Shown here in pieces: positions 9,652 through 28,245 of a stretch of 64,000 bases of DNA (the first letter of the stretch is position 1; each line of letters begins with the position of its first letter). Location: the NCBI GenBank assembly GCA_015059105.1, contig SVBB01000005.1:1-64000 (forward strand). The letters are read 5' to 3'. The position numbers were made by a program, and so were the translations under genes. The stretch is from Erysipelotrichaceae bacterium. Its GTDB lineage: Bacteria; Bacillota_I; Bacilli_A; RFN20; CAG-826. The notes under the pieces were generated by a model. That model made no database searches, was not told the origin of the DNA, and saw only the letters and a list, made by a program, of their open reading frames with translations.

Positions 9652-9652
9652 T

Positions 9653-9670
9653 TTATAAAATGATAGACAT
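9653..9670 (-). CDS. Five-codon leader cistron coupled to the GGDEF gene
   Basis: ATG TCT ATC ATT TTA TAA encodes MSIIL. It has a GAGGTG ribosome site, and its stop is one base from the GGDEF ATG, which itself lacks a ribosome site. This is the pattern of termination-reinitiation coupling. Whether the peptide matters is unknown. Confidence 0.35.
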   Translation of the reverse strand: MSIIL

Positions 9671-9757
9671 TTATCACCTCTTTTGCAACCTTTTATCTAT
9701 AAAAAATATTTCTTATTAAAAAGAAATATAATGGAATTTACAAAAAGAAAGAAATTG

Positions 9758-10879
9758 TTAACGAGGATTTTTTCTGCGTTCTAAAGTGCTATTGCGGTAG
9801 TAATTATCTTTATCGATATACATCTGTTCATCTGCTATTTTTGACATCTCTTCAAGGTCCATCGTCTTATTTTCATCGAAAGAAATACCGATAGAAACCG
9901 CGTATTTTGTCTCTTTTGTTTTCGTTTTGATATCGTCTCTCATTTTCTCTAAATCTGTTAATTTTCCGTTAATTAATAAGACAGTAAACTCATCGCCACC
10001 TAAACGATAAACATAGGAATTCCTAACCGCGCAAGCTTCAATTATTTGTGATATTTTTAATATCGCTTTATCCCCAGCATCATGGCCTTCTGTATCATTG
10101 ATAAATTTAAGACCATTCATATCTATATTGAGAACACCATTGATGTTCTTACCGAGTTTTTTGCAGTCATAATAGAATGTTTTACGGTCAAAACAACCAG
10201 TTAAAGCATCTTTTCTCGTCTGCTGCACATATAGATACAAATAATAGAACAAACACGATATAGCGATTGTTAAATTGAGCAAATTAGTCGCTAAATTAAA
10301 TGTTTCTAAAATTACTGCAGAGATAACGAAAAATCCCGCGACAAATAATACGATTGAATCTGTTTTTCTTTTCCCGTTTAATTTTCTGACGACGTTAACA
10401 AAGAAATAACTAACATACATCATGCCAACAACATGCGCAGTAAAATTCATGTACCCACGGTTATAAACTAGTTCAGTACCACCTTCGTTAAGCGTGTAAT
10501 AGAAAGCAAATTTATTAAGTGGGTCAACATTAACAAATAAGGAAAAAGAATAAACGATAAGATTGAAAATTAATGGGATATAAAATATCCATTGGTATTT
10601 AACTTTTTTACCGACAAGTTGAATGAAAAAATACACGAGCAAAGGGCGAACCACATAACCAAAAAAGGAAAACAGAGTTGTTAAGAAAATATTTAAAGTA
10701 ACTGTCTTATTATATCTTTCTAAAAAACCAAATATGGATAAGATAAGAGATCCAGCGATAATTAAAATCGCATAATGGTTTTCCCGTGAATAACCACGCA
10801 TGTTATAAATGACAATGAAAATCATCGTAATTGCGATGCATAGCAAAGCAAAATTAGAGGTAATAAATTCTAAAAACAT
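9758..10879 (-). CDS. Polytopic membrane diguanylate cyclase
   Basis: 373 residues. Seven or so hydrophobic helices fill residues 1-215 (7TM/histidine-kinase-N-like sensor layout). A GGDEF domain follows (about 220-365) with intact DMNGLKFINDTEGHDAGDKA and YRLGGDEF, so active c-di-GMP synthesis is expected. No RxxD product-inhibition site is visible just before the loop. The membrane part is probably a ligand sensor. It follows the 1014-residue protein after 58 bases. Confidence 0.88.
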   Translation of the reverse strand: MFLEFITSNFALLCIAITMIFIVIYNMRGYSRENHYAILIIAGSLILSIFGFLERYNKTVTLNIFLTTLFSFFGYVVRPLLVYFFIQLVGKKVKYQWIFYIPLIFNLIVYSFSLFVNVDPLNKFAFYYTLNEGGTELVYNRGYMNFTAHVVGMMYVSYFFVNVVRKLNGKRKTDSIVLFVAGFFVISAVILETFNLATNLLNLTIAISCLFYYLYLYVQQTRKDALTGCFDRKTFYYDCKKLGKNINGVLNIDMNGLKFINDTEGHDAGDKAILKISQIIEACAVRNSYVYRLGGDEFTVLLINGKLTDLEKMRDDIKTKTKETKYAVSIGISFDENKTMDLEEMSKIADEQMYIDKDNYYRNSTLERRKNPR

Positions 10880-10937: not shown

Positions 10938-13900
10938 CTAAGAGTTTTTTCTTAATTCTTCAATAAACTTCACTTTATCAAGTGGACGATAGAAGTGATA
11001 ACCTTGGACATATGTATTCTTGCTGATGTCCTTGATGAGGATGAATTGGTCTGCGTTTTCAACACCGACGAGAGAAGCTTTAATGCCCGCTGCTTCCGCT
11101 TCTTTAACTAACGCGGTCACTTCTTGTAAGTGCTGTGGATTGACTTCGATATCACCAACGATCTTTCTATCGATCTTAATCTCTGTAAAGCCTAATGCTT
11201 TTAATGTATCAATAGAAACATATTTACCGGTATATTGGTCAACTGAGAGGACGATATGTTCATTTAAGATTGTCTTCGTCATACCTTTGAATTCTTCCAT
11301 GTGGTTATAGATTTCTCTTTCCGTAATTTCAAAGCCTAAGAAGTCTCTTGGTAAATGATAATTGACAAGAAGATTATGAATCTCTTCATGGAATGATAAA
11401 TCCGCGAAATATGAATAGTCAGTGTTGATTGTAAGTCTTGTAAAGCCATACACTTTAAAAACTGTTAAACCAAACTGTTCATAAAGTTCACCGATATATT
11501 TAATCAAAGCATTAGAAATGAGAGAAATCTTACCGTTCTGCGCGGCAGTTTTAATTAATTCATCCGCGGAGAAGACCATGTTTCGATAGTTATCAGAAAG
11601 ACGTAAGAATATTTCAGCGCCATAAATGGATTTATCCACTGTTCTGACCATTGGTTGAAGAGCGACAGAGAATGTCTTATTACCAAACTGTTCATCGATA
11701 ACCGCAAGCATAAATTTATTTCTCGAGGCGCTTCTGGAGTAATCGCCATCTGGGAAGTAAAGGATATCTTTATTGATCTCGTAATTACGTTGATTGTAAT
11801 GACGAACGACGTATTTGAGGAAGTCTTCCGCGATTGGATATGACTGCGGGAAGGAATATGGAAGATAAGTGATATTGAAGTTATAAGCTTCTTCATCGAC
11901 TTTATAATCTTTTTTACTCGCTTCATAAATGTGTTCAACTAGGTTGACGACATCGATTTGGCCGCTTTCAGGTAAGAGAATTGCAATCGATTGATTATCG
12001 AAAGCATAGATATCTTCTTTTTCTTTATTAATCGCTTTAATCGCTTGAATGAACTGTCTCATTAAGAAGAGATATTTCTCAGAACCGACTTTATCTAATA
12101 AATCTTGATGGTTATCAATTCTTAACACTAAAACATATCCTCTCGCGTTGATGTTATATAATCCGCGTAAAGATAAGGCGAGAGACGTGAAAGAAGAGAT
12201 GAGTAATTCTTTATCAAATCTATCATAGACCGAGCTTTCATCAGTGATGATTTGAAGTAGGAGTCTCTTCAAAGTTGAATTTCTTTCGTTGATCGATAAA
12301 GAAGCGACATATTTAGTTCCATTAATTTCCCCATATTTCTTTTTAGAAGTAAGAAGCGGACAATTTGGACATGGTTTGTCTCTTCCTTCAATGACTTTGT
12401 AACATTTTTCACCGACTTTCGCGTTTTTAAATAACGATTCAAAGTTTCCGGAATAAGAGACGATATCATATGTTTCTTCATCAATACGATATAAAGTTGA
12501 GTTATTGCTAGAAAGCATCGCATTGATTTCGTTATATGTGTTATTGAAATGATCTTCTCTTCTCATCATTAAAAGGAAGTCACCGATTCTATGGAAAGCG
12601 AGGAAGATACCTTCTCTTAAATAAGAATTAATCGGCATTTCTCTATTTTGGTTGAAGAAATAAATCGCCGCATATGGGTAACCCTTATCACGTGAGACGA
12701 AATAATAGCCAGAGAATAAATTCATCTTATCAATAGATTCAGCGAGGCCAACGTTGCAGTGACTACGCGCGGAGAAATAATATGAGCAATCTTTATCGAC
12801 CGCTTGGTCAAGTGCTTCGATTAAATCGCGTGGGACTTCATCTCCTTCTTTAAAGATACGGCTTTCACCTTTCCCTAAAGAGAGAAGAGAATAATACCGA
12901 TGATTATCATCGTTTTGAATAAAGATACCTGCGTAATCGATATCGAGATAATTGCTAAGCGCGGACATCGCTTTTTTCACCGTTGATAAGGATTTATTTC
13001 TATCGCTTGAAGAGATTCTTAAATCGGATAGATATTCCAAAATGCGAGAAACGTTATTTAAATTCATCGAATTTTGCATAACTCCAGAATCACCAAGCGT
13101 GGATAAGCGGTTTGGAAGATATAAGTTAATGATTTCCCCTTGTCTTTTCGCATATCTTAAATCCGCGAATAAATCAGGAATATCGCTATAAGGATAACAA
13201 ACTAAAGAGAATCTCGCATTGATTGTAGAAATACCATCATAAGTCTTTTTAGAAACGCTTAAGCGCTTCATATAATTCGCGGCTAATTCGTGAATATGTG
13301 AGAAAGAATCGATATGAGGAAGGAAGATGTAATAACCACTATTATTTTCGTTTAAAGCAAAACGACGATATGGGAAATCACTAAAAACGTCCTTTAGTGA
13401 GGTTAATATTTGTTCTTTTTCTTCTTCATCTAAACTATCATTATCAAAATCATAGAATAATTCACATAAAGCGTTACGATAGTTTTGTGAACTATAGATG
13501 AGAGGTGATAGATACTTCTTTAAGGAAGCTAACGTTACAAGCTCCTCATCGTTATTGAGGTGTTCAAGTGGAATATTCGAATCATCATAAGTATGGGAAA
13601 TCAATATTCCATTTTCAAACTCTGCTTTAATGACATCGATTTTTTCATTTAATTCATTAATTTCTTTGATATTGGTTTCTGGATAAAGCGGTAAATCTTT
13701 TTCATTATTTTTGATTTTCTCCATCAAAACGGCAGTATTTTTATATAATCCATCGATATAATACTTTTTTAAACGTTTCACGATAATAAAGCAAAAGAAA
13801 GCATATATCGCTAAAACGAGGAAGACAAATCCGGCAAGGATATATAGGAAAACTGGATTACCTAAATTGATATATAAAAGTGATAAAGCAACCGTTCCAA

Positions 13901-13982
13901 GTAAAAGAACGAGAAGGATACCTCCTGGAAGGAAGATAGAAGCGAGGAATGAACGAGAAATCGTGTAAGTTCGTTTTTTCAT
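10938..13982 (-). CDS. Degenerate GGDEF/EAL membrane protein with Cys-containing PAS-like domain
   Basis: 1014 residues: two N-terminal helices (about 12-70), a coiled region, a GAF/PAS-like middle with the cysteine cluster GRDKPCPNCPL (around 555), a non-canonical GGDEF-like segment without the GGDEF loop, and a C-terminal EAL-like domain (about 755-1010). In the last, the EAL motif reads GAEIFLRL and DDFG is replaced by VDQYTG, while QGYHFYRPL is kept. Catalysis is unlikely; a c-di-GMP receptor or scaffold role is more plausible. It is three bases from the nucleosidase-like gene. Confidence 0.8.
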   Translation of the reverse strand: MKKRTYTISRSFLASIFLPGGILLVLLLGTVALSLLYINLGNPVFLYILAGFVFLVLAIYAFFCFIIVKRLKKYYIDGLYKNTAVLMEKIKNNEKDLPLYPETNIKEINELNEKIDVIKAEFENGILISHTYDDSNIPLEHLNNDEELVTLASLKKYLSPLIYSSQNYRNALCELFYDFDNDSLDEEEKEQILTSLKDVFSDFPYRRFALNENNSGYYIFLPHIDSFSHIHELAANYMKRLSVSKKTYDGISTINARFSLVCYPYSDIPDLFADLRYAKRQGEIINLYLPNRLSTLGDSGVMQNSMNLNNVSRILEYLSDLRISSSDRNKSLSTVKKAMSALSNYLDIDYAGIFIQNDDNHRYYSLLSLGKGESRIFKEGDEVPRDLIEALDQAVDKDCSYYFSARSHCNVGLAESIDKMNLFSGYYFVSRDKGYPYAAIYFFNQNREMPINSYLREGIFLAFHRIGDFLLMMRREDHFNNTYNEINAMLSSNNSTLYRIDEETYDIVSYSGNFESLFKNAKVGEKCYKVIEGRDKPCPNCPLLTSKKKYGEINGTKYVASLSINERNSTLKRLLLQIITDESSVYDRFDKELLISSFTSLALSLRGLYNINARGYVLVLRIDNHQDLLDKVGSEKYLFLMRQFIQAIKAINKEKEDIYAFDNQSIAILLPESGQIDVVNLVEHIYEASKKDYKVDEEAYNFNITYLPYSFPQSYPIAEDFLKYVVRHYNQRNYEINKDILYFPDGDYSRSASRNKFMLAVIDEQFGNKTFSVALQPMVRTVDKSIYGAEIFLRLSDNYRNMVFSADELIKTAAQNGKISLISNALIKYIGELYEQFGLTVFKVYGFTRLTINTDYSYFADLSFHEEIHNLLVNYHLPRDFLGFEITEREIYNHMEEFKGMTKTILNEHIVLSVDQYTGKYVSIDTLKALGFTEIKIDRKIVGDIEVNPQHLQEVTALVKEAEAAGIKASLVGVENADQFILIKDISKNTYVQGYHFYRPLDKVKFIEELRKNS

Positions 13983-13984
13983 AA

Positions 13985-14722
13985 TTAATCCTCCCTGATG
14001 ACGTCGTTACGACCGATATCACCGATACAGGTGACAACCGATTTACCGACATCGCTATAATGTTTTAAAACTTTTATATATGCTTCAGTGGTGTCTTTTT
14101 CATCGATTTTTCTTTCGACAACTTTCACCGCGATAACCGGCACTTTATGAAGATGACCCGCAATAGCCACTCCACCAGAAGTACAGTCACAGACGACATT
14201 ATGGTTATGACCTAAAACATAGCCACCCATTTCAATGTTCTTGATTCTTTCGTGAGTATCTAAAACCACATTGGAAGAAACAACTGAACATAATTCATTT
14301 TTTACAAAGCTTCTTTTCTCAATAGAAGCTGTTAAATATTTGATAACTTCTGGGTCGGATTCAAAAGAATGTGGAAATTTTGGAATTTGGCCGAGTCTAA
14401 CATTAGCCTCTTTAACTTGGTTGACATCCCCGATTAAAATACGTCTGCTAATAACGATATCACCTGTTTCTAAATTAGGTGAAAAGGCGACGCATTTACC
14501 AACTACAAAGGCAAGAATAACAAAGTATTTCTCAATGATATAAGAAGTTACTAATGAAGATTCATAACAAGTAAAGATATCCCAAACAAGGACTACTTCC
14601 TGATTGAATATCGTTCCAATAAGCGCTTTATACTTATCAAAAATTATGTCTTCTTTCTTATTGACCATGACACTTTCGAAATAGAGAATGTCATCATGAG
14701 TGGAACCTAAAATCATGATCAT
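13985..14722 (-). CDS. Divergent nucleoside phosphorylase/MTA-SAH nucleosidase-like protein
   Basis: 245 residues. FVVGKCVAFSPNLETGDIVI matches the central strand and glycine-rich segment of PNP_UDP_1 enzymes. CTSGGVAIAGHLHKVPVIAVKVV aligns with the MEGAAIAQVA...VP segment of MtnN/Pfs, but the catalytic Met-Glu and the later Ser-Asp are not preserved. It is therefore probably a non-catalytic nucleoside-binding homologue. Sited between the EAL phosphodiesterase and the degenerate EAL protein with gaps of two bases, it may sense a nucleotide or c-di-GMP breakdown product; that role is inference. Confidence 0.5.
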   Translation of the reverse strand: MIMILGSTHDDILYFESVMVNKKEDIIFDKYKALIGTIFNQEVVLVWDIFTCYESSLVTSYIIEKYFVILAFVVGKCVAFSPNLETGDIVISRRILIGDVNQVKEANVRLGQIPKFPHSFESDPEVIKYLTASIEKRSFVKNELCSVVSSNVVLDTHERIKNIEMGGYVLGHNHNVVCDCTSGGVAIAGHLHKVPVIAVKVVERKIDEKDTTEAYIKVLKHYSDVGKSVVTCIGDIGRNDVIRED

Positions 14723-14724: not shown

Positions 14725-16254
14725 TTATCTATCCTCCCCTCTTTCAAAAGGATTTGATAACAAGAATTTTTCATAATCCTTGACCGGCAAAGCCTCTGAA
14801 TAATAGAATCCTTGGATTGTATCGCATTTGAATCGTCTTAAAATATCGACTTGTTCTTTGTTATCAACACCTTCAGCGATGACTTCAAGGTCGCTTGCTT
14901 TACAGAGTTCGATTAAGAACTTGACGATATCGCGGCTCTTCATATCAGTGACGATATCATCGATATATGATTTATCGATTTTAACCGCGTCAAAAGGCAT
15001 CTTTCTTAAGTTACCGATATTAGAAAAACCAATACCAAAGTCATCCATCAAGACACGAACACCTCTATCTCTAAGTTTCTTAATGATGGAAATAGAGATG
15101 AATGTATTCGCTTGGCTAGTTGCTTCAGTGATTTCAATTTCAATATATGATGGGTTGATTTGATATTTATCTAAGATATTGATGATGGAGTTAAGGAAGT
15201 CGTTTGAATAGAATTCATATAATGAGAAATTGATAGAAACGGGAATAATTCTTCTTCCTTTTCTTTTCGCTTCATTTAAATCCTGACAAACTCTTTCAAA
15301 AACATAAGTATCGATTTCATGAATTAAACCTGCTGCTTCAGCAATAGGGATGAATTTAGCAGGAGTTAAGATACCATTTTTTGGTGAATGCCATCTCACA
15401 AGAGCTTCTGAGGAGACGAAACGTCGTACAGAAAGAGAGAATTTCGGCTGATAATAAACGACGAATTCGTTGTTTTTTAAACCCTGGGTAATCTCTTCCA
15501 CATCGCTTCTTGAAGAATGATGACGGAAGGATTCATGGTAATAAGTCATCGTTTCAAAGTTTCTTTCAGAAACGTTTCTAGCGACCATCGCATTTTCAAT
15601 ATCTTCGACTAAACGGGAATCACTAGTCATTTCACAGATGCCGAAGAATGGTTGCACCCAAATACGAATTTGGCTCTCTTGAGCGATTCTCAGTAAATTT
15701 GTAGAAATCGTATCCACTAATTCTCTGATTTGCCTTTCTTCATAATCACGACAGTAGAGAATAAAAATACCACGCGTAAAGCAATATGCGACATTTTTCT
15801 TTTTCTTTTTATCAAAGAATTTGTCTAGAAATTCCGCGATCGTTAAATTATAAGCGTTAACCGATTCATCACGATTGACGTTTTCGGTAACGGCTTTATT
15901 CGCGGCAGAGAAAGCGATGATGAACTGCTTTACCTTTTTGCTTCTAAAAGCTTTAATCGCCACCACTCTCGCACGGAATGCGTTTAAGTCGAAGAATGTC
16001 GTTGCTTCCCCAAAACTATAAAGGTTTTCGCTGATAAGAGAATGAGTTGAAGATAATACGGAAATGTATTTCGCCGTGAAAAGCGCGCCACATACCGCAC
16101 TAGCTGGTAGAACGCCCAAACAAATATAGAATAAGAACGCTAATTCTCCTTCATGGGTTAAGAAACGCAGTAAGATAATTCCTAGAAATGAAATGAAGAA
16201 TAAAGCGATACAAATAATCGATAATATCAAATATACTCTTTGTCTACTTTTCAT
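14725..16254 (-). CDS. EAL-domain c-di-GMP phosphodiesterase, membrane-bound
   Basis: 509 residues: two transmembrane helices (about 7-65), a degenerate GGDEF-like segment (about 90-230), then EAL (about 245-500). Catalytic elements look intact: SSEALVRW, PVSINFS, EIEITEAT, LMDDFGIGFSN, AVKIDKSYI, VIAEGVDN and QGFYYSEAL. It should hydrolyse c-di-GMP to pGpG. Lying in an operon switched on by c-di-GMP, it could provide negative feedback. It starts one base after the signal peptidase gene. Confidence 0.9.
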   Translation of the reverse strand: MKSRQRVYLILSIICIALFFISFLGIILLRFLTHEGELAFLFYICLGVLPASAVCGALFTAKYISVLSSTHSLISENLYSFGEATTFFDLNAFRARVVAIKAFRSKKVKQFIIAFSAANKAVTENVNRDESVNAYNLTIAEFLDKFFDKKKKKNVAYCFTRGIFILYCRDYEERQIRELVDTISTNLLRIAQESQIRIWVQPFFGICEMTSDSRLVEDIENAMVARNVSERNFETMTYYHESFRHHSSRSDVEEITQGLKNNEFVVYYQPKFSLSVRRFVSSEALVRWHSPKNGILTPAKFIPIAEAAGLIHEIDTYVFERVCQDLNEAKRKGRRIIPVSINFSLYEFYSNDFLNSIINILDKYQINPSYIEIEITEATSQANTFISISIIKKLRDRGVRVLMDDFGIGFSNIGNLRKMPFDAVKIDKSYIDDIVTDMKSRDIVKFLIELCKASDLEVIAEGVDNKEQVDILRRFKCDTIQGFYYSEALPVKDYEKFLLSNPFERGEDR

Positions 16255-16255: not shown

Positions 16256-17143
16256 TCATTTTTCTCCTTTCTTATTAAGCATTTCTTCTAATAATTCTTT
16301 TTTCAGTCTCTCGCGATCTTTATCCGATAATTCGTCGAGTGATGATGGGGTATTACCTCCATCTCCACCGCCGCCTTCATCTTCTTCATCGTTATCTTTC
16401 ATCGCAGAGAAGATATCAAGAACAGATGTAATGACCAAATAGAAGGCCGGAACAAGGAGGAAGACTAATAATCCCCAAGGAGAAGATATAAAGCGGTAAA
16501 AACCCCCTAAAACCTTACTATTTGCCTGTACAATACCTAAATATTGTTTTTCGGTAAAGGCTTGATATTGACCAGCTTGCGCTTGGTGTTCACTGGTGTT
16601 GATACCAGCGACGATAAATGTATATCTACCGTCACCAACAGTTTTTGATTCATCAACTTGAATTTCTCTAAGTCTATGAGTCATTACTACTCCGGTTGGG
16701 TTAGTTTGATCATTGAGTTCTGGATGGTTAAGTGGTTTGACATAAGTTTGGTAAACATCCATAAATGTCATATCGATTTTAATAGTAGAATCAGTTAATG
16801 ATTTTTGATATCTATCATAAACGGATTCTAATGAATCGCGATGGGTGATAATCGCTGAATTAGTCATATAATCCGGTTCCATAGAATCAGTCAAGATGAC
16901 AAAGCTACCAAAACCAAAGGAAATGGTTTGCCCATAGTTTTCATTTTTATGAATCATCCCGTCGATTTGACCAGCGGCAAAAACGGCAAAAAAGGCAAAG
17001 AAAATACCGGTCAACACCCAGCCGATGATCTTTCTCACCTTGCTCTTAGGTTTTTTGACCTTTTCTTCTTTAGTAGGTTCCACGACTTCTGGATTCACTA
17101 CTTCGGGAGTTTCATCTAAGTTTTTCTTACTTTCTTCGTCCAT
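16256..17143 (-). CDS. SipW-type signal peptidase I
   Basis: 295 residues. After an acidic/Pro-rich cytoplasmic tail come TM1 (about 37-60) and the catalytic serine in LTDSMEP (Ser87). The general base appears to be the histidine of VVMTHRLRE (His156), giving the Ser-His dyad of the ER/SipW group rather than Ser-Lys. TM2 is about 228-252. The C-terminus ends with a charged helix LSDKDRERLKKELLEEML that recurs in the small membrane protein at 24.7 kb. It is the obvious processing enzyme for the exported proteins of this locus. TAATG overlap with the preceding gene. Confidence 0.88.
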   Translation of the reverse strand: MDEESKKNLDETPEVVNPEVVEPTKEEKVKKPKSKVRKIIGWVLTGIFFAFFAVFAAGQIDGMIHKNENYGQTISFGFGSFVILTDSMEPDYMTNSAIITHRDSLESVYDRYQKSLTDSTIKIDMTFMDVYQTYVKPLNHPELNDQTNPTGVVMTHRLREIQVDESKTVGDGRYTFIVAGINTSEHQAQAGQYQAFTEKQYLGIVQANSKVLGGFYRFISSPWGLLVFLLVPAFYLVITSVLDIFSAMKDNDEEDEGGGGDGGNTPSSLDELSDKDRERLKKELLEEMLNKKGEK

Positions 17144-18717
17144 TATTCTTCTTTCTTATCAGTTTCTTCATTAGTTTCAGGTTGTTCTATAACTTCTTGA
17201 TTCTCAACCACTTGTGGTTGTTCAACTACTTCAGCAGGGGTTACTTCCTGATTTTCCAGAGGTTGTTCTTCCACTGGTTGATTAGGAATAGGCTCTTCAA
17301 CAACCGGTTCTTTCTGTTCAACCTTTTCTTCTTCAATTTTATTCTTTTCTTGTTTATGTTCTTTTTTATACTCTTTTGCGTCTTTAATGAGGTTTTGTCG
17401 CATCGCTTCAATACGCGCTTCTTCTTCTAAGCGACGTTTCTCTTCTTCAGCGGCTCTTGCTAAAGCTTCTTCTTTCTCTCTTTGAGCGATAATCGCCTTT
17501 GCTTTCTTTTCGAATTCTTGCTGTTCTTTCTTCTTTCTTCTAAGAAGTTTTTCAAGTTCAGCTTTTTCTTTTAAAGCTTTCTTCTTCGCTTCGACATCTT
17601 CTTTGAAGTATTCTTTTTCTTGTTTGTTTGGACGAGATGGCATCTCCACTTTATTGAGATTTGCTAAATAATCGAGATAGCCTTCATCAACTCTTAAGAA
17701 TTCAATTGGGCCTTTATAAAGATCGCCATAAACGAAAGATTCATCATCTAAAGATGTTAAAATCCTTGGTTTATAAGTCTTTGCGGTTTGTTTTAAATAT
17801 TTCTTCTTGTCTTTGGCTTTTAAAGATAGATAATTATACCCCATTAATTTGGCCATTTGTTTCATCTCTTCAGGGGAGAAATCATAGACATCATCATCAA
17901 CTTTATAAGCAACACCTAAGTTGTCATATTTTTCAATGAAGCGATATAACTCATAACAGTTATGATATTTGACATTCTTTCTTAAGATGTTAGTCATTAA
18001 AATAGGCGCTCTCACGTTCTTTTCAGTCTTCATCGCTTTCATAAATGGGGATTTATAGAAATGCTGGACATATTCTCTAATTTCATTGATACGAGAAACG
18101 TAACGGTTAGAGATATCAGCAACTTCTGTTTCTGATTCAGAACGAACTTTCACTTTTGTTTCAACTTCTACTTCTGCCCCATCGATTGTCGTTTTAGATT
18201 TGAAATATAAAACTTCTTCATCGTGAAGAGGAGCAAATTTTTGAATGAATTCATATCTTTTTTCAATGAATAAAACTAATTTACGGACCAAAGTAGCGAT
18301 GAATTTATTTTCATATGTGTGTAAGTCTTGCTCATTATTGATAGTTAAAATCTTGCTAGGAATAACACTACCGTTTTCATTGACTTCTTTAATGAACTGC
18401 GTGTGACTTGCTAAGTGTCTGACCGATTCGGCATTAGTCTTCTTAGCAAGTTCAACAGGGACAATGCTCGTCACTGATTTCGTATTTTCACGTGGATTAT
18501 TGATAATATCACCTAAGTCAGGAATACAGGCTTCAATTTTATTGATCCAAGTCATATCGAAAGAAGATGATTCCAAACGGTCAGAACGCATATATAAGTT
18601 CTTCCCATTTGCGAAACAATCTAAAATATAGGCCCCATCTTTAGACTTATAAATCTGGTCTAATTTGCTTTCGGCTTTTTTAAATAAAATGGAAGTTTGG
18701 CTAGGTTTTTTATTCAT
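17143..18717 (-). CDS. DUF2357/McrC-like protein with long coiled-coil tail
   Basis: 524 residues, no signal peptide. The region about 80-310 includes NNEQDLHTYENKFIATLVRK, a pattern seen in DUF2357 proteins that partner McrB-type ATPases. No PD-(D/E)xK nuclease motif could be found. Residues about 370-470 are a continuous Lys/Glu coiled coil and the last 60 are Pro/Glu/Val-rich and disordered. It is three bases downstream of the McrB-like ATPase gene, so a complex with it at the membrane is likely. Function unknown. Confidence 0.6.
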   Translation of the reverse strand: MNKKPSQTSILFKKAESKLDQIYKSKDGAYILDCFANGKNLYMRSDRLESSSFDMTWINKIEACIPDLGDIINNPRENTKSVTSIVPVELAKKTNAESVRHLASHTQFIKEVNENGSVIPSKILTINNEQDLHTYENKFIATLVRKLVLFIEKRYEFIQKFAPLHDEEVLYFKSKTTIDGAEVEVETKVKVRSESETEVADISNRYVSRINEIREYVQHFYKSPFMKAMKTEKNVRAPILMTNILRKNVKYHNCYELYRFIEKYDNLGVAYKVDDDVYDFSPEEMKQMAKLMGYNYLSLKAKDKKKYLKQTAKTYKPRILTSLDDESFVYGDLYKGPIEFLRVDEGYLDYLANLNKVEMPSRPNKQEKEYFKEDVEAKKKALKEKAELEKLLRRKKKEQQEFEKKAKAIIAQREKEEALARAAEEEKRRLEEEARIEAMRQNLIKDAKEYKKEHKQEKNKIEEEKVEQKEPVVEEPIPNQPVEEQPLENQEVTPAEVVEQPQVVENQEVIEQPETNEETDKKEE

Positions 18718-18719
18718 AA

Positions 18720-20252
18720 TTAGTAGTTTTTAATAAATCCGTCGATAGTCGCATGAGACATTGGGAAAGTGTTCTTGCCGTATAATTTGTCGAGCTGCGT
18801 GTTAAGCTCTTTTAATTCATCTTTTAAGAATGCTAAGTTAAGAGATTCAAATTTCTTTAAAATCTTATTGGCAAAGATGAAATCAAAGCCATCTGATTCT
18901 TTACCGCCACACGCAACATAAACAGGGATGAATGTAGTGAGTTGTTTTAAAATACGGTTACCAAAGGCCAACTTGAATTTCTTGATGACGAAGTTATCCA
19001 AAGCATTGAACTTATCGAGCATTGCATCAGAGATTGGATATTGGTTAATCGCATCATCAAACAAGGCTTTTAATTGGTTATAAGGAACATTGATTGGGTC
19101 TTGATATTCCGCATCAAATGGTCTGCCTTTATCGTCGAAGAAAAGGGAAATCGCACGGTCATAGACCTTATCAGAAATAGTAAATGTCGAATCATCGTTA
19201 TTCGCCGTGCCGAAGAATACGACATTTTGAGGAATTAATAATTTACCTTCTTTTAAATTGATAGGGTCACCAGGTTGAGTAGAGGGGATTAAATCGATTA
19301 ACCAATCGGAAGTATCTCTCATTTCCATAATGGATAAGAATTCCGCGAAGTAATATTCAATACGGGCTAAGTTCATTTCATCGAGGACGATGACATCTAA
19401 GTCTTTTCTATATGTAGTAACATATAATGCTTTTAAAAATTCCGATTCATTAAATTTCTTTGTGAATTCGTTATAGTAACCTAAAAGTTCACTTCTATCT
19501 TTCCAAGATGGTTGGACTGGAATGATGGCTGAGTCGAAGTTAAAGAATTTACCAAGGACATAGGCTAAAGAAGTTTTACCAGTACCAGAGATACCTTCTA
19601 AGATGATTAATTTAGAAGTAGCTATACCAGCGAATAATTGTCTAATTGTTTCAATCTTATAGTATAAGTGTTCTTGGCTAGCCGCATAGTTTCTTAAAGA
19701 ATTACATAATTCTTCAAGTGATAAACCATCTTTAAATGGAATAGTCATATCGACACCTTTATAGGCTTTATCAACATGGACGAGTTTTGGGAAGCGGGAA
19801 TTGAGTTCATCAACATCGACTTGTTGTTCTTCGTTTTCCCCACTTTGCTTACCATCTTCAGGTTTTAAACCCATATAACCAACTTTTAAATTCAATATTT
19901 TATCTTTTTCTTGAACAGCTGTATATAGTTCATAATTGAGTCTTTCGACTTGGCTTTGAAGTTCATCTTTATCAACTTCTCTTTTATAGAATTTGACATA
20001 TTTTCTAATAAGGATGAAAATCAAAAATCCAATACCGGCGATTAAAGCGATGAAAAGGATTAAAAATAAGACCCAGAAGAACCAACCCCAGAAACCAAAT
20101 TCAGGGGAATAAGATCCAAAGATGGAACCATAGGAATCAAAATTACCAGGAACATCCGCCCAAGGGGAGGCAAAAACTTTATTGAAGAATCTTCCTAAAT
20201 CTGAGAAGAATCTTATCACCATTTCTTTTAAATATTCGAAATATGCACTCAT
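18720..20252 (-). CDS. Membrane-anchored McrB-like AAA+ ATPase
   Basis: 510 residues. One strong transmembrane segment (about 55-84) and a short coiled coil precede an AAA+ domain. Walker A is EGISGTGKTS (Lys226). The Walker B/second-motif run VIVLDEMNLARIEYYFAEFL is the McrB signature, and sensor 1 lies in FFGTANNDDSTF. McrB ATPases normally drive a restriction nuclease. Here the ATPase sits in the membrane within an export operon next to a DUF2357 protein, suggesting energy-driven assembly or remodelling of the surface structure (inference). Confidence 0.82.
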   Translation of the reverse strand: MSAYFEYLKEMVIRFFSDLGRFFNKVFASPWADVPGNFDSYGSIFGSYSPEFGFWGWFFWVLFLILFIALIAGIGFLIFILIRKYVKFYKREVDKDELQSQVERLNYELYTAVQEKDKILNLKVGYMGLKPEDGKQSGENEEQQVDVDELNSRFPKLVHVDKAYKGVDMTIPFKDGLSLEELCNSLRNYAASQEHLYYKIETIRQLFAGIATSKLIILEGISGTGKTSLAYVLGKFFNFDSAIIPVQPSWKDRSELLGYYNEFTKKFNESEFLKALYVTTYRKDLDVIVLDEMNLARIEYYFAEFLSIMEMRDTSDWLIDLIPSTQPGDPINLKEGKLLIPQNVVFFGTANNDDSTFTISDKVYDRAISLFFDDKGRPFDAEYQDPINVPYNQLKALFDDAINQYPISDAMLDKFNALDNFVIKKFKLAFGNRILKQLTTFIPVYVACGGKESDGFDFIFANKILKKFESLNLAFLKDELKELNTQLDKLYGKNTFPMSHATIDGFIKNY

Positions 20253-20254: not shown

Positions 20255-21301
20255 CTACATCTCCCTTAAAATTTTGAATCCCAGTTCGAGACCGAAGCTA
20301 GCACCCATATGCGCGTTAGTACAATCTAGATCCCAACCTTCCATATAGAAGGAGAGAACGATTCTTTTTGGAATGTTGTGATACATTGGAATAATCACAT
20401 TATCTAATTCATCTAACGAATAGCTTTTCTCTTTTGCTATTTCTATTCCATTAGTTAGCGATTTTTCTTGGTTATAGCGATATACACCTTTTTTATCTCT
20501 CGCATTGAAGGAGGTTTCTTCGCCAACTAATTCGCTATCTTGATCAAGTGGTTCGTCATATACCACCTTGTCACGATTATTTATTTCTCCAAATACCGTT
20601 TCATATAATTTGCCATCAGTGACGTAATATGAGTAATATCCAGTTTTTTCTAAGTCTAACTTACCCCCGAGAAGAACATCATTTTCATCCTTATATGGAT
20701 CGATGATGTAGAAACGGTAATCATTTTCATCAGGGACGAGTATTGATACTCTCATGCATTTTTTCAAGTTGTTAAGTCTAGTAAGTATCTCATCAACTGT
20801 ATATTCAGGATATCGAGGAGCGATTTGTTCCGCTCTTACTTTATTTTTTTCGATATCTTCACTTATTTTGAACATCTCTTTATCAAGAGTGACATAGGCA
20901 TCATCATCAACCTTGAGATATAACTCTTGAGTGAATAACCCTTTTGTCGCTATCGAGTGACTTGGTCGTCCATCTTTATCGACAAACGGCATATCATATC
21001 GGTATAACTCAGGATTAGCTTTCTTTTCTTTGATCCACAAGTTACTATCCATTGAGGAACAAGGATCGAACATTCCGGAATCGGTGAGTTCTTCATATCT
21101 AAGTGAGCTTTTATATTCGCCATCTCTATCTGGAGAAATAACCAAGTTTCTTTCATCATGAACGGATATGTCTATACCCGCGATTTCAACTCGCGCGCTT
21201 GACGCGTACCACGCGTACGAAAAAGAGAGGGAGGTAACCCCAATTGAGATTACCCCTAAAATACTAGCTATCGTAATTCTTTTTCGTTGTTTGTCGTTCA
21301 T
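20255..21301 (-). CDS. SipW-type exported fibre-like protein 4
   Basis: 348 residues. The hydrophobic start (about 8-35) ends in SLSFSYAWYASSARVEIAG, the same AWY-type junction as its neighbours and comparable to TasA/camelysin precursors. The C-terminus has FYMEGWDLDCTN followed by an FGLELGFKIL strand, the family hallmark here. The middle is charged and less hydrophobic than in its paralogues. ATGA overlap with the upstream subunit gene. Probably a minor subunit or cap; direct evidence is lacking. Confidence 0.7.
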   Translation of the reverse strand: MNDKQRKRITIASILGVISIGVTSLSFSYAWYASSARVEIAGIDISVHDERNLVISPDRDGEYKSSLRYEELTDSGMFDPCSSMDSNLWIKEKKANPELYRYDMPFVDKDGRPSHSIATKGLFTQELYLKVDDDAYVTLDKEMFKISEDIEKNKVRAEQIAPRYPEYTVDEILTRLNNLKKCMRVSILVPDENDYRFYIIDPYKDENDVLLGGKLDLEKTGYYSYYVTDGKLYETVFGEINNRDKVVYDEPLDQDSELVGEETSFNARDKKGVYRYNQEKSLTNGIEIAKEKSYSLDELDNVIIPMYHNIPKRIVLSFYMEGWDLDCTNAHMGASFGLELGFKILREM

Positions 21302-22467
21302 AATCGAGAAATTTGGAATTGTAACCCTAGGTTAAAGGAGTGATGATTCTCCTGGTCGATCACGTGGTGATCCCATCCTTCTAACCATATGGTTACGTCT
21401 AAGTTAGCGACGCCATTAACAGCATCTGTTGCACATACTGGTTTGCCCCATGAAAGAGCACCATTATCATCGATAGGCTTCACCGTCCCAATAGTATCAT
21501 AATTTTGATACTTCGCATGTAAATCGGCGAATGAGGCAGGACGTAAAGTATTTTTAAAATACTTTGATGAGAAAGTCGTCAGTTCATCCGTCTTTCCCGT
21601 TAAGTTGAAGTCTTGAATAGTAGCCGAACTAGTATCCCCTTGATCAACAGTTTCAATTGCTAAGATTTCATCTTCAGTTTCGTATTCGGTTTCACCGTAT
21701 ACAATATTGTAACTATGACCATTCTTCTCATAAGTATCGTAATAACCGTTACCAGAAATATCTAATAACCCTGCAACTGCAGTTTTTCCCTTGCTAGTGT
21801 TAGTATCAGATGGATTGATTAAGTATTTAACAGGCGCAAAGTTTAATACTTCATCGTTAACAGTAGCCTGTTGACCAGAAGTAAACATTCTAATCGCCTT
21901 ATATACTTCTCCGTCTTTTTCCGCGTCAGAAGCTTGAACCTTGGTATCAGATAACCAAATGTTCTCCCCTTTCGCGTAATCTTTAACATTGGAACTATTA
22001 TATCTAATAATCCTAAACGCTAATGGGATATAGACGTATTTTTTAGTATCAGCAGTATAAGAATTAAACGGGGTGCCAGATACAAGCGGATTCTTTAAAG
22101 ATAAGTCACCGCTTGTATAACTACCGGAAGTGACTGGTTCTAATTTATTAGAAGCATAGACTTTTTCATCTTCCAAGTATGTTTTGATGATTTCAGCAGG
22201 TAACCCTGCTCCAGCGTCGCACCAGTAATAGGATTGACCAGCGACATCTTCTCGTTTCATACCTAAAGTACCGAGATTGGGATCATCTGTTTTGATACCA
22301 ATCTGCAGTTGTTCAGAGCTCGCCACAGAAGTGCCTTGGTAAGAGATGCTTACTCTAGTAGAGTAGGCCCACCATGCTAGAGACCCGGATATAGTCCCTG
22401 CAAACCCAAGGAAAACGAGTGACGTTAGCCCAATAGATAGAAACGATATTCTTCTCTTGGTCTTCAT
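21298..22467 (-). CDS. SipW-type exported fibre-like protein 3
   Basis: 389 residues. Signal segment about 5-35 ends in TISGSLAWWAYSTRVSISYQ. The mature part is Thr/Ser/Asn/Tyr-rich and lacks cysteine apart from two dispersed residues. Its C-terminus reads IWLEGWDHHVIDQENHHSFN and ends in a beta strand LGLQFQIS. GAAAGG ribosome site. A 99-base gap upstream carries a GCATACGCGT motif also found at both c-di-GMP promoters. Same family as the three adjacent genes. Confidence 0.75.
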   Translation of the reverse strand: MKTKRRISFLSIGLTSLVFLGFAGTISGSLAWWAYSTRVSISYQGTSVASSEQLQIGIKTDDPNLGTLGMKREDVAGQSYYWCDAGAGLPAEIIKTYLEDEKVYASNKLEPVTSGSYTSGDLSLKNPLVSGTPFNSYTADTKKYVYIPLAFRIIRYNSSNVKDYAKGENIWLSDTKVQASDAEKDGEVYKAIRMFTSGQQATVNDEVLNFAPVKYLINPSDTNTSKGKTAVAGLLDISGNGYYDTYEKNGHSYNIVYGETEYETEDEILAIETVDQGDTSSATIQDFNLTGKTDELTTFSSKYFKNTLRPASFADLHAKYQNYDTIGTVKPIDDNGALSWGKPVCATDAVNGVANLDVTIWLEGWDHHVIDQENHHSFNLGLQFQISRL

Positions 22468-22510
22468 CCTGCTACCTTTCGTTTTAAATTGTTTTTTATG
22501 TAAGGCTTAA

Positions 22511-22522
22511 AGACGCGTATGC
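22511..22522. promoter_or_regulatory. Third copy of a CGCATA/CGCG motif
   Basis: The minus-strand GCATACGCGTCT matches the core of motifs located inside the spacers of the two riboswitch promoters. It lies in the only sizeable gap of the subunit genes and might mark an internal promoter. Confidence 0.3.
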
Positions 22523-22566
22523 ACGTGGGATTAAACCTAATGTGTTGTATTAATTGTTAATTGAGA

Positions 22567-23544
22567 TTAACGATCTGCTTTGCAAGCAAATTGTAATTGA
22601 ATATTGAAGTTTTGAGCAATGTAATCAGTTGACCAAGTAGCATTTTCTCCACCGAGTTTGTCCCAACCTTCAAGCCAAATTCTAACAGTTAATACTTCAT
22701 TGACTTTACAAATAGCTTTTGCAGCAATATCATCATCAGAGTCTAAATCATAAACATGATTCTTTAATTCATCTTGAGTGAGAACCCAGCTATCATGAGC
22801 ATCTGTAGAGTAGGAACTTTCAGACACTGAAGTATCGTTAGAGTATTTGATTAATTTGCTTGAATCAGTGTTATCTGAATCAGTGCAATCCCAAAGCATA
22901 GTATCTGGACCAGTGCTATTACCATTAAGATCCAAATTACCTTCAGTTAATGTTTTTAAACCAGCTCCAGACTTTTCTTTGCCTAGTAAAGCCTTAGCTT
23001 TTCCAGCGCTATTTAAGAATGCAACTCTAACAGCACTTGAGACATCTTTTGTGTGAGTTTCGTCAGTCACTGGAACAATAGCGAAATGTGATAAATAGAT
23101 ATTTCTAGCATCGCTAGTTGGTGCGGCCCAAGCAGAACCATCAGTACTTTCTTGGAATCTAAAGTCAAAACTTAAATCAACGTATGGTGCTGTTTCAGTT
23201 GAACCAAATGCTGGTAATTGAGCAACTTGATAAACTGGGTGTTTTAAGAAGGCTAAAGTATCACCTTCAGATCCTGTACCAGCAGTTCTTTTAATTGTTG
23301 TTGGTAGGAAATTGCTTGGACCAACTACAACTTTTTGTTTCCAATCAGTTTCTTGATGTGAAGCAGCGTGTTGTACGATTTGTAATCTACCTAATGTGCC
23401 AGCGCTAGTACCTTGGATTAAAGCAGCCGCTCTAGTGGAATATTGATACCACGCGACAGATCCAGAAATTGATCCGGCTAAGCCTGCTCCCATTGCTAAC
23501 GCTAATACAGAGACTACAACTTTCTTTTTGTTATTCGTTTTCAT
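22567..23544 (-). CDS. SipW-type exported fibre-like protein 2 (probable major subunit)
   Basis: 325 residues. Signal segment about 8-33 ends in GSISGSVAWYQYSTRAAAL. The mature protein is rich in A, S, T, D and G with few basic residues, as in major fibre subunits. The C-terminal signature is IWLEGWDKLGGENATWSTDY followed by FNIQLQFAC. It overlaps the first subunit gene by 14 bases. TasA-like fibre formation is inferred from signal type, composition and the adjacent SipW peptidase. Confidence 0.78.
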   Translation of the reverse strand: MKTNNKKKVVVSVLALAMGAGLAGSISGSVAWYQYSTRAAALIQGTSAGTLGRLQIVQHAASHQETDWKQKVVVGPSNFLPTTIKRTAGTGSEGDTLAFLKHPVYQVAQLPAFGSTETAPYVDLSFDFRFQESTDGSAWAAPTSDARNIYLSHFAIVPVTDETHTKDVSSAVRVAFLNSAGKAKALLGKEKSGAGLKTLTEGNLDLNGNSTGPDTMLWDCTDSDNTDSSKLIKYSNDTSVSESSYSTDAHDSWVLTQDELKNHVYDLDSDDDIAAKAICKVNEVLTVRIWLEGWDKLGGENATWSTDYIAQNFNIQLQFACKADR

Positions 23545-24376
23545 ATGCGTTTATTTCAACTCCTAATTTTATTGTTGCACCTTGAGGTGCCATACCGCCG
23601 GATTGAGGATCATAACCCTCGATCCATGCGACAATTGTGTATCGATTCATATCACTTTGATTGAAGTATTTAACTGGTATACTTGTGACAACGTTCTCAC
23701 TTTTGAATTCAGTAGCAAATCCTGGGAATGGTACGCCTGTGTCTTCCGCGAGTTCGGGTGATATGGAAATATATTCCTTATTTGTAATATTCCCGTCCAA
23801 GTCGGTTTTTGTCTTTTCACTTGCTAATGCATATACTTCGTAATTATGGCTATTAACATCATAACCATCATTCTGATAAAGCATTACGCGTATCATACTA
23901 TCAAGATAGACTGGTCGGCCATCAAGCATGGCTGGTTTTGATTCAACAATGCGAACTGTCAAATTGTAATCCGCGGAAATCGTGCCCATATTCTTAATGA
24001 AGAACGTGTATTTGAAGAATTTCATTGAAATGTCAGAACTTTCTCCAATGTTATACGGCGTTGTTTCATTATCGACTACGTCGTCTGACGGTAGAGCTCT
24101 AAACGTCATCTGGTCAAACGCCTTCAATGTGTCGACTTTAAGGAATGAACTAACCACTCCGTCTCTACCATCTTCAGTCTTTCCAGTAAGGTATTCCTGA
24201 TTGTTAGATAAGGAGATTTTGACGTTTCCTGTGTTGAGGGATATGGTGAAACTTCCTGAGACGTTTCCTAAGAATGAGACTAAAATCAACGTGCTAATAC
24301 CGATGGTACCTAACCCCGATACAATAGCCGCTATCTTTTTCCTCTTTCTTTTTTTAACATAACCGTTTTCAATCAT
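23531..24376 (-). CDS. SipW-type exported fibre-like protein 1, first gene of the c-di-GMP operon
   Basis: 281 residues. Basic start KKRKRKK, hydrophobic helix about 16-36, then LGNVSGSFTISLNTGNVKIS. Here the AWF/AWY junction is replaced by SFTIS, so its processing may differ from its paralogues. The C-terminus carries VAWIEGYDPQSGGMAPQGAT and a closing strand IKLGVEINAY. First gene behind the riboswitch, it may be an anchor or initiator. No strong ribosome site precedes the ATG. Confidence 0.75.
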   Translation of the reverse strand: MIENGYVKKRKRKKIAAIVSGLGTIGISTLILVSFLGNVSGSFTISLNTGNVKISLSNNQEYLTGKTEDGRDGVVSSFLKVDTLKAFDQMTFRALPSDDVVDNETTPYNIGESSDISMKFFKYTFFIKNMGTISADYNLTVRIVESKPAMLDGRPVYLDSMIRVMLYQNDGYDVNSHNYEVYALASEKTKTDLDGNITNKEYISISPELAEDTGVPFPGFATEFKSENVVTSIPVKYFNQSDMNRYTIVAWIEGYDPQSGGMAPQGATIKLGVEINAYENE

Positions 24377-24664: not shown

Positions 24665-24685
24665 AAAAAAAGTGGGGTTACCACT
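24665..24685 (-). terminator. Terminator of the small membrane protein gene
   Basis: AGTGG-GGTTA-CCACT-type stem (minus strand AAGTGGTAACCCCACTT) followed by a run of T, overlapping the stop codon of the 115-residue gene. Confidence 0.75.
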
Positions 24686-25032
24686 TATTCATCTTTGTTT
24701 AGGTCTTTGAGAAGTTCTTTCTTAAGGGCTTCTTTTTGTTCATCAGAGAGATCGCTGACTTGCACAGGTTCTTTCTTTGTGCTCTTACGAACGTAGATGA
24801 CAAGTCCAATCACGTTAGCAGCAAGAAGAACGAACAATGGAACGACGAAGGCTACTCCGTAAACCCATGGTTGGAGATTCACTAACCAGCCAACAAAACC
24901 AGTCATCGCTTGTCTTTCCACATCACTCTTACCAGCATTCGCGAGCATGATGATACTTAAAACGAATAAAAAGATAGTGACAGCAACATCAACTGATATT
25001 CCGCAGATAAATAGCACTTTCTTCTTATTCAT
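24685..25032 (-). CDS. Small two-helix membrane protein sharing a C-terminal motif with the signal peptidase
   Basis: 115 residues from the ATG at 25032; a TTG three codons earlier is less likely. Helices at about 5-30 and 50-80, short basic loop, then the tail SDLSDEQKEALKKELLKDL. A near-identical tail (LSDKDRERLKKELLEEML) ends the SipW-type peptidase of the same locus. It sits between the two divergent fibre operons as a monocistron with its own terminator. Possibly an accessory or anchoring factor for the peptidase; inference only. Confidence 0.65.
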   Translation of the reverse strand: MNKKKVLFICGISVDVAVTIFLFVLSIIMLANAGKSDVERQAMTGFVGWLVNLQPWVYGVAFVVPLFVLLAANVIGLVIYVRKSTKKEPVQVSDLSDEQKEALKKELLKDLNKDE

Positions 25033-25304
25033 GGTCAGCAAAAGCTTTCTACGATTATATATGTTATACCACTACTTCAATTTTTCAAAACATTTTTTTA
25101 TCTTATATTATAAGGATTTTTTATTTTTAACATACATTTACGCATTTGCATTTGTATCATTTATATACTTTTGTCCATATAACCTAAATATTAAATATCT
25201 TCTTTTTAAATAAAAACATATAAAAATCTAATATTCCTTATGTGTTGAAAGTAACGATCAACCAAGAAAAAAATAACAAACAAGCTTTGCTTAATAAAAA
25301 ATAT
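25033..25304. other. AT-rich gap between divergent units
   Basis: Very AT-rich DNA with no supported gene. It holds the probable promoter of the small membrane protein gene (TATAAT on the minus strand near 25055-25060). Nothing else recognised. Confidence 0.5.
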
Positions 25305-25461: not shown

Positions 25462-26418
25462 ATGAAAAACAAAAAATCTAAAATCATAGTTCCTGCGCTC
25501 GGATTAATCTTATTATCAACTGCTGCTAGTATTTCCGGATCTGTGGCATGGTTCACTGCTAACAGAACTGCAACAATCAACACTGGTGCATTCGGTGTTG
25601 TCAAAACAGATGGTACTTTAGCTGTAGAAGTCACCAATGGAGTTGGCACTGTTGTGACCAACACTACCGTCAGTCGAGTTACGGATGCTAAAATTGCCGA
25701 TGTTTCTTTTAACCCAAAAACACATCAGTTGTACACTGATAAAGGTAATGGTGATGTAAGTGGTTATCGCGAAATCGGTGGTACTACTTCGTTTAGTACT
25801 GCCCCAACAGGAGGCACTGGAACAGGGGCGCACGCTTACAAAATCGATGATAAAACATACTATGCGTTCACATGGAGTGTCACCCTCACATACACATGGG
25901 GGCCAGACAAGACACCATTAAACGTTTTCTTTGATTATAAGAATTCTAGCATGTCAACAACTTCTGCAGCAGAAACTGACTCTGGTTTGAGAATAGCAAT
26001 GGCTGCTACTAAAACTGTTGTATTCGCCGGAATGCAAGCAACTGCAGGTAACTTAAAGGGTGTATATGGCACTGCTGCAAATAATTTTGAAGAATACGGC
26101 ACTACAAACATTACGGGCGGAGTCTTTGGTGGCTATTTTGCTCAATCTGTTTACGGAGATAGCAATACTGCGTCTAGTAACGCAACAGCCACTAAAACAA
26201 CATACTCACAAGCGTTAGATGGAGATACTCAATCTGTCCAAATCGCCAGACCAGATTTCTTAGGCACCATCGAACAAGAAGGTGAAGAAACTAATAGTGA
26301 TATTGTCATTAACTGTATCGCCTGGTATGAAGGAACTGACCCAAACGTTGTTAATAACAAATCTTTAGGTGAAGTTAGTTCTACACTCGCATTCTACGCC
26401 ACAACACAAGGCGAATAA
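25462..26418 (+). CDS. SipW-type exported fibre-like protein 5
   Basis: 318 residues. Signal segment about 8-30 ends in AASISGSVAWFTANRTATIN, the clearest match to TasA/camelysin-type precursors in the window. The mature part is Thr/Ala/Gly/Asn-rich, acidic and free of cysteine except one. The C-terminus has IAWYEGTDPNVVNN followed by a strand, the same signature as the minus-strand paralogues. AAGGAG ribosome site. Monocistronic behind its own structured leader, and likely a major fibre subunit (inference). Confidence 0.78.
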   Translation: MKNKKSKIIVPALGLILLSTAASISGSVAWFTANRTATINTGAFGVVKTDGTLAVEVTNGVGTVVTNTTVSRVTDAKIADVSFNPKTHQLYTDKGNGDVSGYREIGGTTSFSTAPTGGTGTGAHAYKIDDKTYYAFTWSVTLTYTWGPDKTPLNVFFDYKNSSMSTTSAAETDSGLRIAMAATKTVVFAGMQATAGNLKGVYGTAANNFEEYGTTNITGGVFGGYFAQSVYGDSNTASSNATATKTTYSQALDGDTQSVQIARPDFLGTIEQEGEETNSDIVINCIAWYEGTDPNVVNNKSLGEVSSTLAFYATTQGE

Positions 26419-26439
26419 GCGATAACTCAATCAAAAAAT

Positions 26440-26868
26440 GGCGCCCCAAAGTTTAAGGGGGCACAAGAAGAAAAGTCCCAAAGTTAAGGGGGGTTTCAAA
26501 GGAAAATTGCCTGGAAATCGTTGGTTTCTGGGCTTTTTATATCTCCCGTTTATAAACACAAACATGTTCAATTTCGGCAGCTAAAAAGTACTTGTGATTG
26601 TGCGATCCATTTGGCAACACCTGATTGATAAATAAATGCCTTATAATTTATATATCCTTTAGGATAATGTTTATAATTTTTTTGTGGAATAACAAGAAAA
26701 AAGTGTTATTGAAATAACTTTATTTCTCTTTCTTTTCTTCCCAGCGGGAAAAGAAAGCCGACAAAGAAAAGAAGGCATCCATTTGAACTGCCCCCTTTAA
26801 CTTTGGGACTTGATTTCTAGGCCCCCTTAAACTTTGGAGGGATATCCATGCCCCCTTTAACTTTGGTT
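26440..26868. mobile_element. IS21-like remnant bounded by repeated termini
   Basis: The left side has two copies of CCAAAGTT(T)AAGGGGG (about 26445-26461 and 26477-26493). The right side has three inverted copies of CCCCCTT(T)AA(A)CTTTGG (about 26791-26807, 26821-26838, 26850-26866). Multiple short terminal repeats facing inwards are typical of IS21-type elements. The interior of about 300 bases has no intact transposase. It separates the 318-residue gene from what looks like its original terminator. Confidence 0.6.
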
Positions 26869-26872
26869 TACT

Positions 26873-26906
26873 CAAAAAAACCACTTCAATTCGAGGTGGT
26901 TTTTGT
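26873..26906 (+). terminator. Terminator, probably of the 318-residue gene before the insertion
   Basis: AAACCAC-TTCAATTCGA-GGTGGTTTTT, a strong stem followed by T residues. Immediately after it, GCGC-GTCAATT-GCGC-TTTTTT (26908-26928) forms a second terminator-like hairpin. Confidence 0.75.
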
Positions 26907-27049
26907 TGCGCGTCAATTGCGCTTTTTTGCGCTTTTGCCTTTTAGTTGATATTTATATCAAGTGCTTGAATAAAAAAGTGCAACTTTGTACAAAGCAGCA
27001 ATAATAATATTATTAAACCTATTTCTCTAACATTTGCCATAAAAAATGT

Positions 27050-27239: not shown

Positions 27240-27295
27240 ATTTTAGCAAAATATAATAATATTATTATAAAACTCAAATCTTATCGGTAAAACTC

Positions 27296-27325
27296 TTGAC
27301 AACTTTTCGCATACGCGTGTATATT
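27296..27325 (+). promoter_or_regulatory. Promoter of the second c-di-GMP transcript
   Basis: TTGACA, 18-base spacer, TATATT with a TG extension. The spacer contains CGCATACGCGTGT (27308-27320), related to the motif in the minus-strand operon promoter. Confidence 0.8.
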
Positions 27326-27332
27326 ATAGATG

Positions 27333-27430: not shown

Positions 27431-27437
27431 TAAGACT

Positions 27438-28244: not shown

Positions 28245-28245
28245 T

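Follow-up and report, generated by a model that had tools for sequence, protein, structure and literature searches.

A nuclease-less, membrane-anchored McrBC-type module in an operon of exported proteins of an Erysipelotrichaceae bacterium

The DNA analyzed here, referred to as the window, is a stretch of 64,000 nucleotides (nt) from an Erysipelotrichaceae bacterium (assembly GCA_015059105.1, contig SVBB01000005.1, positions 1-64,000 of the forward strand). Two neighboring genes on its minus strand, 2 nt apart, encode a McrB-type AAA+ NTPase of 510 amino acids with a transmembrane (TM) helix (18720..20252) and a McrC-like partner of 524 amino acids (17143..18717); both lie where a first-pass annotation of the window had placed them. 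The pair matches a McrB class that already has a name, CoCoPALM; the first-pass annotation was unaware of this name and left the accompanying exported proteins unidentified. The evidence is computational: the domain assignments of the two proteins, the absence of a nuclease, a membrane helix, an operon that is conserved and whose genes co-occur, and the pilin-like predicted fold of an exported protein. On balance, and by a modest measure of probability, we favor the reading that the module is a McrBC-derived motor of the CoCoPALM type, no longer able to recognize or cleave DNA, with a function in the biogenesis of surface fibers.

A McrB-type motor at the membrane

The AAA+ protein passes the cut-off of Pfam AAA_5, and among solved AAA+ structures only McrB was matched in a single-sequence search (6hz4, E 0.0013); a profile of 38 sequences retrieved 6hz4 (4.6e-06), 6ut6 (9.9e-06) and 7vsr (1e-05). 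The McrB-type assignment of the first-pass annotation is thus upheld, but the sequence that it had taken as the McrB signature, DEMNLARIEYYFAEFL, is absent from the canonical McrBs of the order. Those that adjoin nuclease-bearing McrCs carry DEINR(G/A)N(I/V)S(K/R)...G(E/D)LI, unlike DEMNLARIEYYFAEFL, which, judging from these sequences, marks a derived branch. Walker A (GISGTGKTS), Walker B (DE[ML]N, here DEMN) and the sensor N351-x-D353-D354 (here NND-D, i.e., of the NxD type) were invariant in all 38 relatives, and the motor is therefore predicted to be active rather than decayed.

A single strongly hydrophobic stretch occupies residues 50-88, and a membrane helix is present in 38/38 relatives, in agreement with the helix that had been claimed at residues 55-84; the TM segment proper was placed at approximately 57-84, followed by a linker helix and the AAA+ domain. 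Since the hydrophobic stretch is followed by RKYVKFYKR, the motor should be cytoplasmic by the positive-inside rule. As a separate observation, two unannotated faecal phage records contain partial relatives of the AAA+ domain that cover about one-third of the protein (MT835511.1, 40037-40528, 48% identity; MT837127.1, 4228-4887, 31% identity).

A McrC-like partner without a nuclease

A Pfam scan of the full-length partner was empty, probably because of its charged tail. When the trimmed core was used, residues 70-160 matched DUF2357 (PF09823, the N-terminal family of McrC) at 28.5 bits, above the cut-off of 23.3, so that the profile search proposed in the first-pass annotation bore out its DUF2357-like call. 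The PF09823 scores reach 46 bits in partner relatives from distant lineages, and a genome-wide PF09823 scan points to the same locus in this genome. The AlphaFold2 model of the partner, built from 48 sequences, is confident over residues 1-300, which hold the DUF2357 core, and continues into a disordered linker, a 93-residue helix (372-464) and a disordered tail. In a structural comparison, the four best rows for this model were McrC chains of E. coli and Thermococcus (Z 7.6-7.8 over 138-147 residues), the alignment spanning residues 49-270 of the model and 3-191 of E. coli McrC, and leaving the nuclease half of McrC uncovered. On its own, a Z just below 8 is moderate; the Pfam match points the same way. 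Foldseek alone returned no usable match for the model. The comparison with McrC that had also been proposed was unsuccessful, as the DUF2357 family profile did not reach the single E. coli McrC sequence; relatedness to McrC thus rests on PF09823 together with the structure. A β-hairpin at residues 165-194 of the model is taken as the likely counterpart of the McrC stalk.

No PD-(D/E)xK domain was found in the partner, and the model leaves no room for one after residue 300. Likewise, the conserved residues of the partner (H101, E136, R154, K92, K93) contain no D...(D/E)xK set. The first-pass view of a nuclease-less partner is therefore sustained, in that neither structure nor alignment gives a conserved nuclease site. 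A profile match to a PvuII entry of the PDB (E 9e-05, profile positions 249-281) was rejected as chance or local similarity, because it covers the first ~30 residues of PvuII. The long helix that had been described as a coiled coil is indeed present and rich in K and E, but its heptad periodicity did not exceed that of shuffled sequences (p 0.2-0.7), which leaves the coiled coil unproven. Among relatives, the partner ranges from 448 to ~1,600 amino acids with the core retained. Separately, in six loci that are Clostridia-like or of some other origin (L097, L098, L103, L109, L115, L120), the DUF2357 gene is directly or closely followed by a giant gene of ~1,800-3,100 amino acids, possibly for a very large surface protein.

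The operon and its exported proteins

The two genes are embedded in a minus-strand operon, the majority of its genes overlapping or lying no more than 2 nt apart. The partner gene is overlapped by 1 nt by the gene of a SipW-type signal peptidase of 295 amino acids (16256..17143), in which Ser87 in the SMEP... motif region and the THR motifs were recognized; its match to the SipW model NF046067 is weak (E 1.7e-06, under the curated cut-off). Exported proteins are encoded upstream of the AAA+ gene by four genes on the same strand (20255-24376) and by a fifth, divergent one. The first protein, of 348 amino acids (20255..21301), has a SipW-type signal peptide; it is followed by products of 389 (21298..22467), 325 (22567..23544) and 281 amino acids (23531..24376), the last of which represents the most widely kept subfamily (c6). 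The divergent gene on the plus strand (25462..26418) encodes 318 amino acids, varies in copy number among relatives, and is a candidate for the major fiber subunit. All five belong to one deep superfamily with an A-W-F/Y signal motif and a C-terminal W-[IL]-E-G-x-D motif, and no Pfam or NCBIfam family in common was matched by 46 exported proteins. Three exported proteins with SipW-type signal motifs, one of 1,343 amino acids, are encoded on the plus strand at 25462-32223; hence the exported cluster reaches past the operon.

The 20255..21301 product was modeled with a pLDDT of 91 and a pTM of 0.83 as an N-terminal helix followed by a β-rich domain, a predicted β-sandwich resembling FimA. By VIA-align, the top four rows were all FimA pilins, including self-complemented forms (135-141 residues, Z 5.4-5.7), which suggests that the protein is pilin-like; TasA was not among the structural rows listed. 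TasA filaments form by donor-strand assembly with a SipW-type peptidase (PMC10151520; PMC13082335), and it is this donor-strand logic, common to both, through which the FimA likeness ties in TasA (PMC10151520).

The same filaments bear on a different role for the ring, that of quality control, in which it would extract or unfold stuck or mis-inserted precursors and so clear the signal peptidase and Sec, while the fibers form by themselves outside through donor-strand exchange, as in TasA. TasA-type fibers use donor strands and an extracellular chaperone, with no known motor (PMC10151520; PMC13082335), and the predicted cytoplasmic location of the motor, away from the fiber, also fits. Quality control alone, however, does not account for a motor that is retained only alongside these substrates, and we regard it as unlikely, although it deserves more weight than the other alternatives discussed below.

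Conservation of the locus

At least 566 relatives of the partner were found in a scan of one genome per species, and the locus counts given here refer to the best 80. Their sources are metagenome-assembled genomes and isolates with labels such as Bacilli, Erysipelotrichaceae, Acholeplasmatales, Anaeroplasma and Clostridia, and one bin among them carries a Gammaproteobacteria label that is probably wrong. Relative to the partner gene, position -1 was a McrB-like gene in 73 of the 74 readable cases, and position +1 a signal peptidase in 64/72; at position -2, 65/67 loci had either an exported protein or another signal peptidase. Within the order, the full membrane McrB was found in 48 of 147 genomes, 47 of which also had the exported proteins; the latter occurred in only 5 of the 99 genomes without the full membrane McrB, and four of those five were weak hits (Fisher p 1.7e-31). 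Since the genes are physically linked, this p value is no independent evidence of interaction, but shows a co-inherited unit. Canonical McrC (PF10117) was found in 9/147 genomes of the order, and this genome is not among them.

These surroundings agree with the first-pass description of an export operon rather than a restriction locus, as exported proteins and a signal peptidase are linked to the pair and the 140 unclassified flanking proteins contain no recurrent DNA-methyltransferase family, where only families with two or more members could be judged. No nuclease was found in the conserved operon either, and the restriction context is absent. They also bear on a role in defense, in which a membrane-tethered McrBC relative would sense invading nucleic acid or phage damage and act via a nuclease in trans or via disturbance of the membrane. 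The wider NxD McrB branch does include the CoCoNuTs, which are predicted RNA-targeting defense systems (PMC11090510), partial relatives of the AAA domain occur on plasmids, and the profile PDC-M26A of the PADLOC candidate PDC-M26 matches the AAA+ protein with E 3.4e-41, though in two stretches only of its 724 positions. The lack of a nuclease in either protein or the conserved operon, the flanks without a recurrent methyltransferase family, and the tight linkage of the pair to genes for exported proteins and signal peptidases nevertheless make defense improbable. In addition, no PADLOC model matches the partner, no partner relative was found in viral contigs, and among plasmid and phage records no match spans 80% of the AAA+ protein.

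Downstream of the signal peptidase gene, a membrane EAL protein (14725..16254, minus strand; PF00563, E 1.9e-67) retains the motifs EALVR, EITE, DDFG, KID, AEG and QG, and is thus predicted to be an active phosphodiesterase of cyclic di-GMP (c-di-GMP). It is followed on the same strand by a protein of the phosphorylase/nucleosidase superfamily (PF01048, 245 amino acids, 13985..14722), a large membrane protein that matches EAL and, weakly, GGDEF (10938..13982) and two further GGDEF-type membrane proteins (8284..10879), which stand beside the module in a same-genus genome as well and possibly form the end of the operon. The fixed order of these genes in many loci, with EAL at +2 and the nucleosidase-like gene at +3 in 35/80 loci each, would suit a signaling or gating role, whereby NTP-driven changes of the ring regulate the neighboring EAL/GGDEF proteins or the signal peptidase and switch matrix production on or off. 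In many loci of Acholeplasmatales and Clostridia, however, the EAL genes are absent or elsewhere, yet the exported proteins and signal peptidases remain, and we consider this role the least probable of those weighed here.

As for transcription, the minus strand has a promoter-like site (24600-24572) and a terminator-like site (8076-8062) that fit a single transcript but prove nothing; terminator-like sites exceed chance in the window (25 found, 11.8 expected), and promoter-like sites show no excess over chance.

Relation to known systems

Bell et al. (2024; PMC11090510) gave the name CoCoPALM, in one paragraph, to a clade of NxD-type McrB domains that are joined to an FtsB-like TM/coiled-coil part and have signal peptidase genes linked to them; the paragraph leaves the class for later work, and the text is without substrates, partner genes or mechanism. 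A full-text search of open-licence papers found no follow-up. The present module resembles this class in its NxD McrB domain with a TM and a helical segment, its McrC homologue with a long added helix, and its linked signal peptidase. Of the FtsB-like and coiled-coil features, it has the TM and, in the partner, the predicted 93-residue helix; no FtsB/DivIC match to the AAA+ protein was obtained in the Pfam scan, and heptad periodicity in the helices of both proteins was within the shuffled range given above. Considering that NxD, TM and the signal peptidase were found and that the canonical nuclease and NxxD were not, the module was filed in CoCoPALM. How it works is another matter, and here we infer a McrBC-like motor deprived of its DNA parts. 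Beyond the published account (PMC11090510), the present analysis adds the exported pilin-like proteins, the c-di-GMP and nucleosidase genes, the nuclease absence and the co-occurrence counts.

With E. coli K-12 McrBC, a Type IV restriction system, the module shares the McrB AAA+ core and the DUF2357 half of McrC, but it is without the DNA-binding domain of McrB and the PD-(D/E)xK domain on the McrC-like protein, is membrane anchored, has NxD instead of NxxD, and lies in another gene setting. The CoCoNuTs share the NxD McrB branch, long helices and a McrC homologue from which the nuclease is often lost (PMC11090510); they carry HEPN or other nucleases and RNA-binding domains, neither of which was found in the conserved operon, where TM, signal peptidase and exported proteins occur instead. 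The TasA/CalY (camelysin)-SipW operons of Bacillus have in common a SipW-type peptidase beside exported β proteins and a signal-peptide motif of the A-W-F/Y type; no McrB/DUF2357 motor is known in them, and the exported proteins of the module are without a Pfam or NCBIfam match.

Proposed mechanism

The intact motor and stalk, the loss of the DNA-acting parts, the membrane anchor, and the near-obligate presence of pilin-like proteins and a peptidase together point to a role in the export or assembly of surface fibers. By homology with McrBC, six McrB-type subunits would assemble into a ring at the cytoplasmic face of the membrane, held there by their N-terminal helices, and the DUF2357 protein would insert its β-hairpin stalk into the ring and stimulate NTP hydrolysis, as McrC does on McrB. 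The long charged helix of the partner may replace the nuclease as a lever or tether. As the operon linkage suggests, the ring would engage pilin-like precursors that bear SipW-type signal peptides, whether nascent or embedded in the membrane, and release or thread them into the growing fiber while the co-encoded signal peptidase cuts them; the EAL/GGDEF proteins could couple expression or activity to c-di-GMP. For the direction of force and for c-di-GMP control, we infer as well, and the ring may pull, push, clear or gate, among which these data do not decide.

Several points weigh against a motor for fiber biogenesis. To our knowledge, the TasA/CalY fibers of Bacillus assemble without a motor. 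The link between motor and export is drawn from genes and could reflect co-regulation only. A Foldseek search with the 20255..21301 model gave nothing significant, and Z values of 5.4-5.7 to FimA are in a range that can be explained by a common arrangement. The PDC-M26A match, finally, may keep a link to defense alive.

If fiber biogenesis is nonetheless the correct reading, a motor whose known settings are confined to DNA restriction and predicted RNA defense has been converted into a part of surface-fiber biogenesis, and a role can be predicted for a large unannotated set of exported proteins from uncultured Bacilli and Clostridia of the gut and rumen. The function of CoCoPALM would then become directly testable, for instance in the isolate Paracholeplasma vituli (L108), and annotation pipelines would be warned not to score these genes as defense.

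Sister architectures

Two other operon types contain related AAA+ proteins. In the second class, which occurs in the same order (L163-L165, L168-L170, L172, L174), an AAA+ protein of ~600 amino acids is accompanied by one to three small exported proteins with a signal motif of the A-x-W-V-I type, a signal peptidase, a DUF2357-like protein, an ABC ATPase and ABC-2 permease (an ABC-2-type exporter downstream), and a protein of ~820 amino acids. In the third class, two very similar McrB-like genes flank the DUF2357 gene (AAA-DUF2357-AAA) beside large surface proteins with InlB-type repeats (InlB-like) or transglutaminase core domains (L166:6378-10743; L167:6376-10601; L171:7032-11608; L042:5440-9902). 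The exported pilin-like superfamily was found in 0/35 genomes holding only the second or third AAA+ class. In a small tree, a very long branch (100/100) sets all three classes apart from the canonical McrB of the order. The two sister architectures suggest a McrB branch repurposed for the cell surface. Tentatively, and at somewhat less than even chances, the whole branch, with at least three operon architectures, may energize the export or assembly of surface structures, the version in the window being the motor of a sortase-independent, c-di-GMP-regulated class of pilus.

Other genes of the window

A small membrane protein of 118 amino acids (24685..25041, minus strand) recurs in the operon of close relatives. 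Further along the minus strand, a putative secreted lipoprotein of 2,315 amino acids (46725-53672) starts with MKKKTLLVSALSVFLLALSAC and probably contains repeats. A gene of 1,975 amino acids that by eye resembles a nonribosomal peptide synthetase (57959-63886, minus strand), with two adenylation-type regions, one condensation-like region and a terminal reductase-like region, is unusual for a 1.5 Mb genome.

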